From Phaeospirillum sp. (GTDB lineage Bacteria; Pseudomonadota; Alphaproteobacteria; Rhodospirillales; Magnetospirillaceae), in contig JAUSFB010000073.1 of NCBI GenBank assembly GCA_030651575.1, positions 1 through 64,000 of the forward strand: a stretch of DNA of 64,000 nucleotides. The letters are read 5' to 3'. The translations under genes and the position numbers were made by a program. The stretch's first letter is position 1; each line of letters opens with the position of its first letter. Of this stretch, positions 58,250 through 64,000 are shown piece after piece. The notes below the pieces were generated by a model. The model saw nothing but the letters and a program-made list of their open reading frames with translations. It was not told the DNA's origin and made no database searches.

Positions 58250-58410
58250 CTTGCTGCATTGCAGCAGGTCACGAGTTCCAGCGGGGCCTCCCCGCCCTCT
58301 CGTTCCCGGGTGCAACGCCCGGGTTTCGGGTCTTTGGACCCTACGTCTCCTAGACGTGAAGCCTCCCTGTTTGACTTAGCCCCTGGTGAATAACCAGGGG
58401 CTTTCTTTTT
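58250..58410 (+). ncRNA. Candidate structured small RNA with exposed CCU/CUCC loops
   Basis: Six perfect or near-perfect hairpins follow one another. They are TGCTGC/GCAGCA (58252-58266); GCGGGG/CCCCGC with loop CCT (58281-58295); CCCGGGTG/CGCCCGGG with loop CAA (58305-58323); GGGTC/GACCC (58328-58341); ACGTCT/AGACGT with loop CCT (58343-58357); and a terminator at 58378. Two loops and a single-stranded GCCTCCC (58361-58367) resemble the anti-Shine-Dalgarno motifs of alphaproteobacterial sRNAs. No protein frame is credible. The strand is set by the terminator; the promoter is not clear. Confidence 0.6.
58378..58410 (+). terminator. Strong intrinsic terminator
   Basis: AGCCCCTGG and CCAGGGGCT (58378-58386, 58394-58402) with loop TGAATAA, followed by TTCTTTTT. 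It ends the candidate small RNA. Confidence 0.9.
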
Positions 58411-58972: not shown

Positions 58973-59263
58973 TCATGTCGACGTGGTCGATACAATCGAT
59001 GCCATGTAAGTCTTTGATAACATTGGCTGAAAAGTGAGCCGGGCGCGCAGCTCGGCTTCCATCTTGTTGAAGGCGGTGATGTAGGCGAGCTTGAACTTCA
59101 AGGCCTTGAGGCCTTTGAAGCCCATGATCAGATAGCTGAGACCGTCGCGGGTCATGTCCACCGAGGGTCGGGTTTCCCCCTTGCTGTCCTGATACTCAAC
59201 GGGTCGAAAGTTCGACCCGTTGAATTCCGAGCTACAATCCAGGTTGCGGATCGCTTCGAGCAC
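58973..59263 (-). pseudogene. Rha-family phage regulator, N-terminus without a normal start
   Basis: 96 aa from GTG 59263. Core matches Rha antirepressors: EYQDSKGETRPSVDMTRDGLSYLIMGFKGLKALKF and AYITAFNKMEAEL. The same frame continues open upstream to about 59365 and encodes Rha-like YANSREVAEAFGKEHKH. It has no ATG, GTG or TTG there before a TGA. The upstream part overlaps the HTH gene's end. Either a rare start or frameshift is used, or the start has been lost. Confidence 0.6.
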
Positions 59264-59331: not shown

Positions 59332-59556
59332 CTACTTGTACCCGAAAGCCTTCATGGCCTCATTCATACCTTCCGCTCCTCCTACAGCGGCAACTCCACC
59401 AAGCCCTTCTATCCATCGGTCCACGGCAACCCGATCATACCGGCGACACCGTCCGATCTGGACATGAGCGGGGCCATGCTTGCGAAGCTGACCCACACTG
59501 ACGGCGGCGTAAGCAGCGGCTTCCTTGACGGTCAACAGGCGGGGTTCCAGGGTCAT
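59332..59556 (-). CDS. Excisionase/MerR-type HTH protein
   Basis: 74 aa with the helix-turn-helix_17 pattern: LLTVKEAAAYAAVSVGQLRKH then GRCRRYDRVAVDRWIEG. Such proteins act as recombination directionality factors or small regulators. Its ATG overlaps the stop of the tail-I-like gene (ATGA), and its end overlaps the Rha frame. Confidence 0.72.
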   Translation of the reverse strand: MTLEPRLLTVKEAAAYAAVSVGQLRKHGPAHVQIGRCRRYDRVAVDRWIEGLGGVAAVGGAEGMNEAMKAFGYK

Positions 59557-60167
59557 ACCGCCACGTCCTTAGCGTCGATGTTGATGGATAGCACCTGCCC
59601 ATAGAGGCGGTGACGCCCATATCCGATAGGGATGCGGGTGCCGGACTTCGAGGTGTTCTTGGGCGCACCGAGATACTTGGAGGCATCGGGGTTCATCGCG
59701 GAACCCGAGTTATTCCAGGTGGGGGTATCCATCTGTGGGGCGGGGGAGAGCGCGGCGAGCACACCGGCCCCCATCATGCCGACGCCTGCCATGAGGACGC
59801 TGGAGGCGCTCAACGAGACAGCCTCAGCGCCGGCCCCCCACAGAGGCACCGTCGCGGGCATCATGACGGCAACGGCCACCAGCACGACCCCAATCACGAT
59901 CTGGATCATGCCCGCCTGTTTAGAGCCCGAGAAGTCAGGGTGGAGGTGGATATCGACTTCATCGTCTCGGAGGGGGCGGTATAGATCCTCTCGGGTGGAA
60001 TACCCTCGAACCCGCATCTGGTGACGCTGCTGTCCAGGGATGGGGTTGAAGGCATTGGTCATGAGACATAAGGCATTGATCGCCTCAGCCACGGTTGCAG
60101 CGTCGAACTCCAACCCACTAGGGCAGAGCTTTTTCAGCCTTCCATGCAGAATAATTTTCCGCTTCAT
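59553..60167 (-). CDS. Lambda-type tail assembly protein I homologue
   Basis: 204 aa from ATG 60167. Resembles phage tail assembly protein I (MKRKIILHGRLKKLCPSG, then NPIPGQQRHQMRVRG, DEVDIHLHPDFSGS). Two hydrophobic helices follow (MIQIVIGVVLVAVAVMMPATV and GAGAEAVSLSASSVLMAGVGMM). It is a lone structural-type gene among regulatory genes, with overlaps at both ends. Ending GTRIPIGYGRHRLYGQVL is typical of the family. Confidence 0.78.
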   Translation of the reverse strand: MKRKIILHGRLKKLCPSGLEFDAATVAEAINALCLMTNAFNPIPGQQRHQMRVRGYSTREDLYRPLRDDEVDIHLHPDFSGSKQAGMIQIVIGVVLVAVAVMMPATVPLWGAGAEAVSLSASSVLMAGVGMMGAGVLAALSPAPQMDTPTWNNSGSAMNPDASKYLGAPKNTSKSGTRIPIGYGRHRLYGQVLSINIDAKDVAV

Positions 60168-60379
60168 CACGCTTCGAGCCTCCGGTAAACTTGAAGGTCG
60201 ATCTCGGTCAGCTGCCCTTCCGGCAAGGGCGTAACCCCGAGGTCTACCCCCGCGATTTCCTGGAGGATGGCTCTGCGGATATCGGTGCCAATCCATACAC
60301 TCTGAGGCCCGAGTCCGGCCCGGAGGTGCCGAACGGCGTTGAGCAATTTCAGGTCCAACGGGGGGATAATCTGGGTCAC
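60167..60379 (-). CDS. Hypothetical small protein
   Basis: 70 aa, starting MTQIIPPLDLKLLNAVRHLRAG. No family recognised. Stop overlaps the ATG of the tail-I gene (ATGA), and its own start overlaps the preceding gene's stop. Confidence 0.55.
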   Translation of the reverse strand: MTQIIPPLDLKLLNAVRHLRAGLGPQSVWIGTDIRRAILQEIAGVDLGVTPLPEGQLTEIDLQVYRRLEA

Positions 60380-60666: not shown

Positions 60667-60881
60667 CGCCGGAGCCGAAAGGCGGCGAGATTAATCTTCC
60701 GGGCCGGGGCCAGTCCGAAGGCTTCCCGGACATGGTCCGGGGCGTCGGCCATGGCCCTGAGGACCATGCTCTCATCGGCCCCCAAGAAGCCCGCCAACCG
60801 GGCGATGGTGGGCGGACTCTTGGGGCTCAACTTGACGATTTCGACAGCCTTGCTGACGACCCAAGCATGTTCGGCGTTCAT
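60663..60881 (-). CDS. Hypothetical small protein
   Basis: 72 aa; the segment TIARLAGFLGADESMVLRAMAD could be an HTH-like helix pair. Its ATG overlaps the upstream stop at 60878. Confidence 0.5.
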   Translation of the reverse strand: MNAEHAWVVSKAVEIVKLSPKSPPTIARLAGFLGADESMVLRAMADAPDHVREAFGLAPARKINLAAFRLRR

Positions 60882-61759
60882 TGGAACCTCGCGGCAATGG
60901 CACGGCCCAGATCATCGCCAAATTCGGCGGCGGCTGCCTTGAGACGGGCCTGGATTTCGGGTGGAATGTTAACCACGGTCGGCTTGGCCCGGTTGCTGGT
61001 CAGCAAGCGGTGTCGCCGGAAATCCAACGCTCCTTCAGGGATCAGGAACCCGTCGCCGGTCTGGGGGTGGGCAGCAATCCACATACCGTCCGTGCCTGCA
61101 AGTTGGTCCGCGAGTCGCTCGGTGGACTTGCGGAGGTAGATATCTCCGTCGCGGTCTTCCCAATTCTGCGCGTCGAATTCCTTGGCGAAGCTGGCATCGA
61201 TCACGACGGTGGTTAGGCCGATGCCCCTGGTGGCAATGACCTTAGCCATGCTGCCGGTCAGCAGGCCGACCGACTTTGCCAGCAAAGCCGCAATCAGGTT
61301 GGCGTCGGCTTCAGCGTCGCTACCATCGGCATGTTGGGCGGTGAGAATGGTCCGGCGTTTGAGGGGGTGGCCCTCCACTTCGGCGGGGCAACCGATCTCA
61401 TGGGCACCATTGGCATCAGGGCCGGTGGTCACCCGAGCAAGCTCCAATACAAGTTTGTCATTGTGGCCGTTCGCGGGGCCAATGGCAGCCCGGACGGCGC
61501 GACGGGACAGTTCCCAGTTTACGGGAGAGATGCTGCCGTCCGTGAGGGCCGGGAGGTGGGTGTGCAAGGCGACGATGGCGTCGGCCAAGGCGTCGGTTCG
61601 GGCGATGGCGAGGCATTTGTGGGAGACGTGTTGCTCGACCACCTCATAAACCTTCGCAGGGCAGGCCGGGGCGAAGTTGCTGAGAATTCGACCATGGTGG
61701 AGGTCAATTTCGGGGCGGGTCCAGGGGCCGGGTGTTGCGGCGTTGCGGGCGGCGATCAT
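60878..61759 (-). CDS. Hypothetical protein of the mobile element
   Basis: 293 aa from ATG 61759 (MIAARNAATPGPWTRP), overlapping the previous stop as ATGA. C-terminal part may be a ribbon-helix-helix-like end (KPTVVNIPPEIQARLKAAAAEF). Otherwise no recognised domain; no signal or membrane segment. Confidence 0.65.
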   Translation of the reverse strand: MIAARNAATPGPWTRPEIDLHHGRILSNFAPACPAKVYEVVEQHVSHKCLAIARTDALADAIVALHTHLPALTDGSISPVNWELSRRAVRAAIGPANGHNDKLVLELARVTTGPDANGAHEIGCPAEVEGHPLKRRTILTAQHADGSDAEADANLIAALLAKSVGLLTGSMAKVIATRGIGLTTVVIDASFAKEFDAQNWEDRDGDIYLRKSTERLADQLAGTDGMWIAAHPQTGDGFLIPEGALDFRRHRLLTSNRAKPTVVNIPPEIQARLKAAAAEFGDDLGRAIAARFQ

Positions 61760-62001
61760 CGGATAGACCTTTTCTTTCCATCGGCTCGGCGAACCTGTTT
61801 GTTCATGGCATCGCCGAAGCGCCCCCGGACGGCGAAAGGCGAGGCGTTCTCGCCATACATGCCAATCCAAGCGCGTTCGAGCAGAACACCAACCAAGGCG
61901 GATACGGTCAAGGCCTCGTCCTCTGCGAGGATTTGGGCCTTTAGTTTTTGAACCTCAGTCGGGTAGTACGTTGAAGCGGTCCTTGTCATCTTGAACACCA
62001 C
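61756..62001 (-). CDS. Possible ribbon-helix-helix protein
   Basis: 81 aa from GTG 62001 or 77 aa from ATG 61989; no strong ribosome site decides. YYPTEVQKLKAQILAEDEALTVSALVGVLLERAWI has the strand-helix-helix rhythm of small RHH regulators. First gene of the tightly overlapping set. Confidence 0.5.
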   Translation of the reverse strand: MVFKMTRTASTYYPTEVQKLKAQILAEDEALTVSALVGVLLERAWIGMYGENASPFAVRGRFGDAMNKQVRRADGKKRSIR

Positions 62002-62310
62002 TTAATGCATTTACGCACCTACAGTGCCACGAGGTATTTTGATATTCAAGGAATTTTGTTTATGTGATGCATCGGCGTTACTGAACGTATACTAGTACAT
62101 ATCTCAAACAAACTTGTTGCTAGATGCATTTACAGGCCAAACATCTTGTGTAACTCGTGGTTCGGCCTCGCTGACGGGCCAAACCGAGGTCGTCGGTGTC
62201 CCCGCCCCTGCCGTTGGTGTCTGACGTTGCCCTCGGACAGTCCCCGTCTTCTCCGAGCCCGTCGGATAGGCCACGGGTGGCCCCTCGGTGGTGAGGTGGT
62301 GCGGGTGGCA
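62002..62310. other. AT-rich non-coding stretch carrying a recombinase-type repeat
   Basis: No gene is supported. ATGCATTTAC is repeated directly at 62005 and 62124. The left 18-bp inverted repeat lies at 62083-62100. Short frames antisense to the recombinase tail are not credible. Confidence 0.55.
62083..62100 (+). repeat. Inverted repeat, left copy
   Basis: GAACGTATACTAGTACAT. It agrees at 15 of 18 positions with the complement of 63199-63216, the last 10 bases being identical. The two copies flank the serine recombinase. Confidence 0.55.
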
Positions 62311-63000
62311 TCAGGTGACGGCAGTGGCCTCCAGCCGGACCAGCAGACGCCGTACGGCTCCGAATGACCACTCTGCCTTGCCGGTGGCGGTCGGGACATT
62401 CGCGGTTGTCAGCCAGTCGCCAATGGCCCGGATCGAGGTCTCTCCGCACGCGCAGGAATCGACGACGATCTGGCACAGGTCGGCATCCATCGACGCCCTG
62501 GCCGACGCCTTGGCCGCTCGTGCGGCCAATGTATCGACGTTCCGGCACTCGGCCAGCCTGGGGTTGCCCAGCACCACGCCACGGGCGCGGGCGGCGGCAA
62601 GGGCGGCTTTGGTGCGGGCCGATATCATCCGCCGTTCCTCGTCGGCGACCATCGCCATGATACCGATGGTCAACCGGTTCGCGTTCGGCATGTCGGCACA
62701 GACGAACTCGACGCCTGCCTTTTCAAGTCCGAGGAGGAAGTGAGCGTCACGGCTCAGTCGGTCGAGCTTGGCGATCAGCAGTACTGCGCGATGGCGGCGG
62801 GCGGCAGCAAGGGCGAGTTGGAGTTGGGGGCGATCTGATCGCTTTCCACTTTCGATCTCCGTGAACTCGGACACCAGTTCCCAGCTTCCTCCATTGAGGA
62901 ACTCGGTAACGGCATGGCGCTGGCCTTCCAGCCCCAGACCGGAACGCCCCTGCTGTTGGGTCGAGACTCGGTAGTAACTCACGAACTTGCCCGATGCCAT
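62311..63000 (-). CDS. Serine recombinase (resolvase/invertase family)
   Basis: 229 aa; ATG 63000 follows GGAG. Catalytic Ser lies in FVSYYRVSTQQQGRSGLG. Further motifs are LLIAKLDRLSRDAHFLLGLE, ANRLTIGIMAMVADEERRMISARTKAAL and a C-terminal HTH (TSIRAIGDWLTTANVPTATG). It resolves or inverts DNA by a double-strand-break mechanism. Inverted 18-bp repeats lie on both sides. Confidence 0.9.
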   Translation of the reverse strand: MASGKFVSYYRVSTQQQGRSGLGLEGQRHAVTEFLNGGSWELVSEFTEIESGKRSDRPQLQLALAAARRHRAVLLIAKLDRLSRDAHFLLGLEKAGVEFVCADMPNANRLTIGIMAMVADEERRMISARTKAALAAARARGVVLGNPRLAECRNVDTLAARAAKASARASMDADLCQIVVDSCACGETSIRAIGDWLTTANVPTATGKAEWSFGAVRRLLVRLEATAVT

Positions 63001-63009
63001 GCTGGCCAC

Positions 63010-63364
63010 TCCAGTTGATCGCCTTCGCCCTGGTATGATCCCGCCTGCTATACGGTCGTTTTGCAGGAAGGATCAGAGGTAGGACGACGAAAACAGAGCG
63101 AGCGTGACTGGCAGGAGTGTGTCCGGCAAGCTGACCGTATTCACAGTACATATGGAGAATGTTGGCGCTTATATGTGTCAAGCGCAAAGATTAGGATGAT
63201 GTACTAGTTGACATTCTCGAAGGAGTACACCTTTTTTGTGGCGTAGGAATTAGTTTCTACAGCCACAACTCGCCTCTAACTCCGGTGAATTTTTGCAAAT
63301 TTTGAATGCTATTACAATACTTTCTTTATTCACCATGGGTTTGCTTGGTGGCGCTCTCGCGGGA
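63010..63364. other. Non-coding region with recombinase-site-like repeats
   Basis: GTACATATG-GAGAATGT (63146-63162) and its approximate complement ACATTCTC...GTAC (63211-63228) are seen, with AGTACATAT also at 62094. AT-rich stretches with poly-T follow near 63230 and 63285. It may hold the recombinase promoter and binding sites. Confidence 0.5.
63199..63216 (-). repeat. Inverted repeat, right copy
   Basis: ATGTACTAGTTGACATTC, complement partner of the copy at 62083. It is upstream of the recombinase gene. Confidence 0.55.
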
Positions 63365-63496
63365 GGGGGATAAGGGGGTTACGGGGGTCACTCCCAGCCT
63401 AACTCCCCAAACTGTCATTTCACTATTGATCTACCTGAGTAAATGACAGTTTCGGGCGTAGTAGTAAAAGTGACCCCTTTATCCCCCTTATCCCCC
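63365..63496. repeat. Nested inverted repeat with two layers
   Basis: Outer arms GGGGGATAAGGGGG (63365-63378) and CCCCCTTATCCCCC (63483-63496) are perfect complements, extended by GGGGTCACT (63384-63392) against AGTGACCCC (63469-63477). Inner arms AAACTGTCATTT (63409-63420) and AAATGACAGTTT (63441-63452) are also perfect, with a 20-nt loop. The right outer arm runs over the stop of the primase-like gene. It could be a replication or transfer origin, or a large bidirectional terminator. Confidence 0.75.
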
Positions 63497-64000
63497 TAAA
63501 TTGACGAGCCGCCAGAGCGCGACCCCCCCGCGCACACCGGCATGCTCAATTTTCATGCTCTCGATGATGCGACCTTTAATACCGCTGAGCCATTCACCAA
63601 GAGCGCGGCCATGAACGCTACCACCCCGGCCCGCGACAGATAGAAGCGCTTCCCGGAATTCAGGCTTAACAAAGTTCCTGGTCCCAGGTGTGATGGCAAG
63701 GTGTTGATCCGTGACTACCGTAATGACCCGATTCACGGTAACGGGCTCCTCTCCAAGGACCTCATTCCACTGAGAAAGAACCTCAATGGCACTTTTCCTT
63801 TCGGGGTCATCTTCCCTGAGTTGGACCTGAGTACCAACGGCATCGGGCTCATCCAGCCACACCAGCGCATCCCGAACCCGCCGAGACCAGTTTGCGAAGC
63901 TGTTCAACGGCTGAACCTTCAGCGAGGAACCAGACACGGCATAGGCCCTAAGGATGGTCAGGGCTGCAATGACGTATTTCCCCCGCTCGCCCTCCACGGC
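63488..64000 (-). CDS. Primase/helicase-like protein of a mobile element (C-terminal part)
   Basis: At least 169 codons, open to the right edge. The segment AALTILRAYAVSG, then LNSFANWSRRVRDALVWL and DAVGTQVQLREDDPER resembles the C-terminal region of element-borne primase/helicase (DUF927/D5-like) proteins. No catalytic motif is visible in this part, so the assignment is tentative. Its stop lies in the nested inverted repeat. Confidence 0.6.
   Translation of the reverse strand, partial: AVEGERGKYVIAALTILRAYAVSGSSLKVQPLNSFANWSRRVRDALVWLDEPDAVGTQVQLREDDPERKSAIEVLSQWNEVLGEEPVTVNRVITVVTDQHLAITPGTRNFVKPEFREALLSVAGRGGSVHGRALGEWLSGIKGRIIESMKIEHAGVRGGVALWRLVNLGG

Follow-up and report, generated by a model that had tools for sequence, protein, structure and literature searches.

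Genes and Features at the Locus

In the window (the whole stretch of 64,000 nt analysed here, positions 1 to 64,000 of contig JAUSFB010000073.1), a composite palindrome lies between a serine resolvase gene and a primase-helicase gene, the stop codon of the latter being located inside the palindrome. The following features were recognised.

62311–63009, minus strand: serine resolvase gene adjoining the palindrome
63140–63346, no strand: AT-rich stretch adjoining the palindrome (AT 0.58–0.68 per 50-bp bin from 63150 to 63349), a possible unwinding region
63347–63524, no strand: candidate third, outermost inverted repeat, weaker than the others (16-nt arms 63347–63362 and 63509–63524, 88%)
63365–63391, plus strand: outer iteron array A, three 9-bp repeats GGGGGATAA, GGGGGTTAC, GGGGGTCAC (from the sequence and the inverted-repeat arm 63364–63392)
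63393–63468, no strand: spacer between the arrays, 76 nt (AT 0.57 vs. a window mean of 0.359)
63402–63459, no strand: inner core hairpin of the AAACTGTCA/TGACAGTTT type (perfect 12-bp arms 63409–63420 and 63441–63452, 20-nt loop)
63453–63459, minus strand: core flank with the sequence ACGCCCG, weakly similar to the ACGCG-type flank of the relatives
63470–63496, minus strand: outer iteron array B, inverted, GGGGGATAA, GGGGGATAA, AGGGGTCAC (from the sequence and the inverted-repeat arm)
63488–64000, minus strand: 3′ part of the primase-helicase gene, the predicted initiator (954 aa; whole gene at contig positions 63488–66352)

The outer arms (63364–63392 and 63469–63497, 29 nt each, 90% complementary) form, read inward, 15 pairs, a short mismatched stretch and 9 pairs, where the first-pass annotation had described 14 bp plus 9 further bases; the separate 12-bp perfect palindrome with a 20-nt loop that it had placed inside was recovered as AAACTGTCATTT/AAATGACAGTTT, nested in inner arms of 19 nt each (63402–63420 and 63441–63459, 89% complementary). 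Each outer arm is made of three 9-bp direct repeats, and the first repeat of array B (63496–63488) is the primase gene’s own Gly-Gly-stop, i.e., its last two codons and the stop.

Folded as single strands, the two strands of the palindrome reach −89.7 and −94.8 kcal/mol (z −8.9 and −9.0), a stability attained by 0 of 200 dinucleotide shuffles of either strand. A search of its own genome matched a single place, on both strands because the sequence is palindromic. No match to plasmids and phages was returned by blastn, which is the expected outcome if the sequence of the palindrome is free to change. At E up to 10, Rfam gave no match over the palindrome, only two chance-level microRNA matches elsewhere, and no DnaA boxes were found in the 20-kb locus.

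The Host Element

A 32-bp perfect direct repeat is present at window positions 58346–58377 (plus strand) and at contig positions 68249–68280 (8249–8280 of locus L003); the two copies are likely the att sites, and hence the ends, of an element of ~9.9 kb. Of 15 loci read in relatives, 14 contain the same 32-mer with at most three mismatches, and in eight relatives a further short match to it lies at another place in the genome, which suggests an integration hotspot. The 32-mer is situated inside a stretch weakly resembling the suhB/mmgR sRNA family (32.3 bits vs. a gathering score of 41), so that the insertion point of the element appears to be the end of an sRNA-like locus.

Upstream of the primase-helicase gene, the element carries an HTH_17/AlpA-like gene and a tyrosine integrase gene. 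A tail-assembly gene (phrog_32, E 7.2e-34; 59556–60296) is found inside this small element, and no other phage structural genes were recognised among the ORFs scanned. Near its left end, a Rha-like/anti-repressor gene (58973–59263) shows a partial family match and looks truncated. Between the resolvase and the tail gene, there is an ORF of 330 aa (60881–61870) with no Pfam, PHROGs or PADLOC match at the cut-offs used; a family search for defence genes among four small neighbouring ORFs likewise returned nothing.

The Primase-Helicase

The neighbouring gene, noted earlier as a primase-like replication gene with the palindrome at its 3′ end, proved to encode a Prim-Pol domain (PF09250, E 8.5e-18, residues 65–219). 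The C-terminal half of the protein resembles phrog_29234 (E 1.6e-164), a PHROG without assigned function. The structure model of this half has a pLDDT of 93.7 and a pTM of 0.91, and the best Foldseek match for it was SaPI5 PriRep1 with dsDNA (E 2.9e-7, with a TM-score of only 0.35), followed by ASFV PrimPol, poxvirus D5/E5 and NrS-1; the TM-scores of the helicase-half matches are low, 0.30–0.41 on query length. VIA-align gave Z 13.9 for vaccinia D5 (rmsd 5.5 over 317 residues), Z 13.8 for the SaPI5 primase-helicase and Z from 11.3 for MCM chains, and a sequence search against solved structures returned nothing convincing (best E 0.0074, a designed ATPase). Thus, an SF3-type helicase domain is predicted in the protein by fold, not by activity.

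The last 125 residues, modelled alone (pLDDT 86.3), form four helices followed by a two-strand hairpin. Their structural matches are weak (best Z 6.8), several bacterial winged-helix regulators lie near Z 5, and Foldseek returned no match at E ≤ 0.001. Judging from the model, the C-terminal domain is probably a winged helix, though this assignment is weak.

Relatives and the Survey of Their 3′ Flanks

Homologs of the primase-helicase were detected in 33 of the 297 genomes searched (own genome included), in 68 phage and 24 plasmid records, and in 113 confirmed stretches of viral contigs, 80 of which were kept; a protein scan of genome contigs with the primase-helicase (P0001) yielded 38 pattern matches, none confirmed as a relative. 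From the 92 matching plasmid and phage records, 18 were taken. After 8 of the 80 viral loci had been dropped for lack of a full 3′ flank, together with 8 near-duplicates, the survey set comprised 110 non-redundant flanks (70 viral, 18 plasmid/phage and 22 genome), the window’s own being one of them. Genome hits L010, L019 and L029–L033 were not entered (partial, or with the C-terminal end missing from the locus), nor were L132–L142 (places already covered by earlier loci), L143 and L001–L003 (the window’s own place).

The score of a flank is that of the best inverted repeat, without gaps, in the interval between −30 and +200 nt relative to the stop codon (Table 1).

Table 1. Flanks and comparison sets with a strong inverted repeat or repeated 7-mers.
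Signal; flanks; control segments elsewhere in the same loci; shuffles
Score of at least 12; 55/110; 16/1100; 1/1100
Score of at least 14; 42/110; 5/1100; 0/1100
Exact 7-mers, at least 5 copies over both strands; 22/110; 6/1100; 2/1100

Half of the flanks therefore pass the strict threshold of 12, which control segments almost never do. By group, 45/70 viral, 7/18 plasmid/phage and 3/22 genome flanks pass, and 55/110 score below it (25/70, 11/18 and 19/22, respectively). Medians over the 55 passing flanks are +6 nt from the stop for the start of the left arm, +126 for the end of the right arm and 72 nt for the spacer. Among the 45 arms of at least 18 nt, 33 have a best internal period of 9 and 9 have one of 10; arm self-match at the best lag is at least 0.75 in 29/45, compared with 39/900 shuffled arms. 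The mean AT content has its maximum (0.536) at +50 to +100 and is ~0.39 in the gene. When one mismatch was allowed in the 7-mers, counted over both strands, the discrimination was lost, the controls reaching the thresholds equally or more often.

Unblinded inspection by eye of the 22 viral flanks with neither signal revealed imperfect arrays or a core in 16, the other six looking empty (L060, L066, L092, L099, L105, L116). Imperfect arrays were also seen by eye in the below-threshold genome loci L007, L011, L014, L015 and L025. Among the plasmid/phage loci, L039, L040, L042, L045 and L051 were without an array by eye, L048 was ambiguous and L050 was scored only.

The repeat units differ among the elements, e.g., (AGTGGGTTT)x3, (AGGTAGGGAT)x3, GGTGATGGT and TTGGTTTCTTGG. 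Behind the homolog’s stop in Azospirillum AZO_p2, (AGTGGGTTT)x3 stands opposite (AAACCCACT)x3; the Psychrobacter plasmid pA32H2, 6.5 kb long and with 4 genes listed in a table that is incomplete, has the homolog together with an array of AGGTAGGGA repeats opposite their complement. G6 blocks follow the homolog in pMNOD06, and pMt-1 features two 18-bp repeats in an imperfect arm of 48 nt. Hence, what is conserved among the related elements is position, geometry and repeat period, the sequence changing on both arms together; this is the pattern of conserved arms with compensating bases beside primase genes for which the first-pass annotation had proposed to look.

At the same time, no link was apparent between iteron similarity and the similarity of the C-terminal protein part: the partial rank correlation was −0.06, a value reached by 243 of 300 permutations, with slightly higher rank correlations in windows 381–420 (0.20) and 401–440 (0.16).

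The Inner Core

Core tallies were made in the spacers of 52 of the 55 passing loci, three being too short. An inner hairpin score of at least 9 was found in 12/52 spacers vs. 10/1040 shuffled spacers. The motif ACG[CT]G occurs in 23 of the 52 (6.2 expected), TATAG in 22 (4.8 expected) and TATAGAG in 9 (0.45 expected). The common form of the core is ACGCGNGG-AAACTGTCA...TGACAGTTT-ATAGAG, and its arms co-vary, as in ATTTCGCA/TGCGAAAT, TAACTCGCA/TGCGAGTTA, AAACTCTCA/TGAGAGTTT and AAGTGTCA/TGACACTT.

The table of core arms was anchored by hand and holds 29 arm pairs, L007 and L067 being left out of the pairing test; loci without a clear ACTGTCA-like hairpin never entered it. In the 27 hand-picked pairs, 224 of 243 positions pair, a count reached by none of 5000 permutations of the right arms, and in the 17 distinct arm pairs 135 of 153 positions pair (again 0/5000). 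One position is G-C in 20 pairs and C-G in 7. Since hand-picking favours pairing, these figures support compensating change in the core but do not prove it.

A scan for AAACTGTCA N3-33 TGACAGTTT N0-2 ATAG was run without reference to any gene. It returned eight hits in viral contigs, seven of which follow a homologous gene of their contig at a distance of 26–80 nt; three of the seven contigs already belonged to the set (L168, L171, L172), so that four of five new contigs agree, the fifth (L166) having no homolog in its 3.6 kb. In cellular genomes, one of eight hits adjoins the gene, lying 83 nt past its stop in Neoroseomonas soli (L176); the other seven have no homolog in the stretches examined, of at most 8 kb, and resemble unrelated hairpins, a rough estimate predicting a few chance hits of the core pattern in a cellular-genome collection this large. 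The core in L167 and L169, as read from the sequence, appears inverted relative to the gene and the iterons, which fits a DNA site better than an RNA.

Comparison with Known Replicons

The replication locus of the Streptomyces theta plasmid pWTY27 consists of repAB and an adjacent iteron sequence; its RepA binds specifically to an inverted repeat of ~105 bp, as documented by EMSA and footprinting, and the authors infer bidirectional replication (PMC3583192, available part). The RepA region of this plasmid is homologous to residues 552–952 of the primase-helicase (tblastn E 1e-23, 27.2% identity, 42% of the protein), and directly behind repA GTGGGAA is present in 10 copies on both strands within 420 bp. 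The two systems thus share a homologous Rep and two-strand repeats that add up to a long inverted repeat immediately after the rep gene. Unlike the window, pWTY27 has its primase (RepB) and RepA as two genes, more repeat copies and no ACTGTCA-type inner core discernible by eye, whereas the window combines a single fused protein with a compact 3 + 3 array around the core hairpin.

In the Sulfolobus plasmid pRN1, replication depends on a stem-loop of ~100 nt that lies 3′ of the rep gene but also functions when relocated on the plasmid; the structure of this stem-loop is conserved, its sequence is not, and its GTG motifs tolerate mutation. Its authors describe the origin function as lacking direct proof, rolling-circle replication being argued by another group (PMC4234260, available part). 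Both pRN1 and the window feature a Prim-Pol + SF3 helicase initiator and a long stem-loop directly 3′ of the rep gene, with diverging sequence and a persisting structure; at the same time, the pRN1 origin is, according to PMC4234260, devoid of iteron structure, whereas the stem in the window is made of iterons and encloses a second hairpin. The same source, in that part, proposes that AEP-SF3-winged-helix proteins assemble at 3′ stem-loops, with phage BIP-1 as an example. The Bordetella phage BIP-1/BPP-1 resembles the window in the proposed assembly of a PrimPol-SF3-winged-helix protein at a stem-loop 3′ of its own gene, but its iteron repeats are reported away from the proposed origin (PMC4234260, available part).

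The origins of SaPIs are described as iterons directly downstream of the helicase gene; in SCCmec, the C-terminal domain of Cch2 binds the origin, and this binding was abolished by deletion of the direct repeats and unaffected by deletion of inverted repeats (PMC7581432, available part). The window shares with these elements the iterons directly behind a helicase gene and the fold match to SaPI5, and its element has the tyrosine integrase and the 32-bp att repeats along with the iteron-like array behind rep; it differs in the inner core hairpin, of which there is no mention for SaPI/SCCmec in the available part of PMC7581432. This likeness to SaPI/PICI-like phage satellites lies in genes and repeats; induction by a helper phage and packaging through it are further features of such satellites. 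For PLE, a different initiator is described (PMC7145576, available part).

The Palindrome as a Putative Replication Origin

The palindrome is very probably the replication origin of the small integrative element, with the primase-helicase whose stop codon lies inside it as the initiator. Its anatomy is that of two inverted arrays around a core; its position and geometry are conserved among relatives, with compensating change; and the initiator is homologous to Reps whose downstream origins are known or have been proposed. These observations are best read as an iteron-type origin served by a PrimPol-helicase initiator, although the function as an origin rests on homology to published replicons, and we infer every binding, melting and priming step in the element. 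The earlier suggestion of an origin or single-strand initiation site is thereby strengthened by the survey, as far as function can be taken over from those replicons. Counted against it are the flanks without structure, the missing sequence link between iterons and protein, the single gene-adjoining hit among eight in cellular genomes, the lack of a DnaA box, the weak winged-helix assignment and the low TM-scores of the helicase half.

The initiation may proceed as follows. The C-terminal domain of the initiator would bind the two face-to-face arrays of three 9-bp iterons, so that each side would receive one helicase hexamer, oriented inward. The SF3-type motor could then melt the AT-richer core between the hexamers, where the inner palindrome may extrude as a hairpin, and the N-terminal Prim-Pol domain would lay primers on the exposed strands, to be extended bidirectionally by host enzymes (theta mode). 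The last step is the least certain because the authors of the pRN1 study report missing direct proof and a rolling-circle counter-view. Likewise, the palindromic form itself may be irrelevant to binding, since Cch2 binding survives deletion of inverted repeats in the SCCmec origin.

Several other functions could be assigned to such a structure. The arrays might serve as an operator or a copy-number control, where the initiator represses the operon or handcuffs copies and synthesis starts elsewhere. Control roles are common for iteron arrays, and the repeats would be bound under either reading, as the pWTY27 precedent illustrates (PMC3583192, available part); but here the arrays lie behind the stop codon, not at the promoter of the gene, an inner core with flanks of its own would be superfluous for an operator, and the pRN1 stem-loop in the same place is needed for replication, also when relocated (PMC4234260, available part). 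Taken together, we consider control as the sole function improbable. A bidirectional transcription terminator or a structured RNA ending the primase transcript would account for the very stable fold of both strands at the 3′ end of the gene. Still, neither arm is followed by a T-run, Rfam is silent over the palindrome, the arms are built from direct repeats of 9–10 bp and the core is turned around relative to the gene in L167 and L169, which makes this explanation very unlikely. A search for intrinsic terminators (a short G+C-rich hairpin with a T-run) gave 0 sites in 62000–64000, which leaves a plain terminator unsupported.

No better are the prospects of a site for another DNA transaction, such as packaging, partition or, at a res site, the action of the neighbouring serine resolvase. 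The resolvase gene does start 355 bp away (63009), and the tail-assembly gene shows phage kinship, but the loci were found via the primase-helicase and their other neighbours vary: the recombinase gene of pMNOD06 is ~5 kb away, and the gene tables of L035–L038, incomplete as they are, list no resolvase beside the array. Least credible of all is a chance structure or a transposon remnant (a MITE-like inverted repeat). Inverted repeats are common in bacterial genomes, but the rates in shuffles and controls and the tight position behind one gene family already contradict such an origin of the palindrome. A MITE or another repeated element was also considered and rejected, the palindrome being single-copy in its own genome.

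A Possible Class of Origins

Iteron origins behind PrimPol-helicase genes have been proposed before, and in part tested, in other systems. In the literature searched, which covered few subscription papers, no description of inverted iterons combined with a conserved inner core was found; what seems new is this composite build of outer iterons and inner core, along with its spread. Tentatively, and with rather less assurance than for the origin itself, one may envisage a widespread unnamed class of bacterial phage and plasmid origins, in which two inverted arrays of two to three iterons of 9–10 bp frame a separate conserved core (an ACGCG-type flank, a AAACTGTCA/TGACAGTTT-type hairpin and a TATAGAG-type flank). 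The iteron sequences would diversify freely under a kept symmetry, copy number and phase, so that each element has its own address; the core, invertible with respect to the gene, would be where the Prim-Pol initiator primes single strands or unwinds the DNA.

If the reading as an origin is correct, two separately published ideas, the stem-loop of pRN1 and the inverted iteron repeat of pWTY27, would be joined, and the origins of many uncultured phages, satellites and small plasmids would become readable directly from sequence, the sign to look for being a core hairpin framed by inverted 9–10-bp repeats, immediately past the end of a PrimPol-helicase gene. Two questions would become testable as well: how a single initiator fold holds the geometry when the iterons diverge in sequence, and whether Prim-Pol starts at the inner hairpin. 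In addition, compact candidate origin/initiator pairs would be available for vectors of Alphaproteobacteria.

Variants in Distant Relatives

In a plasmid of Legionella adelaidensis (L039, 5531–5610), the homologous gene is followed by a lone AACTGTCAT, with no iteron array by eye. In the Actinobacteria plasmids L043, L041, L044 and L047, the primase and the helicase/Rep are encoded by separate neighbouring genes, and the array is located behind the Rep part. In the archaeal-host phage vir525 (L049), GCGGGTA is present in nine copies on both strands within the first 420 nt after the stop of a distant homolog, a hint that the arrangement extends to archaeal viruses.
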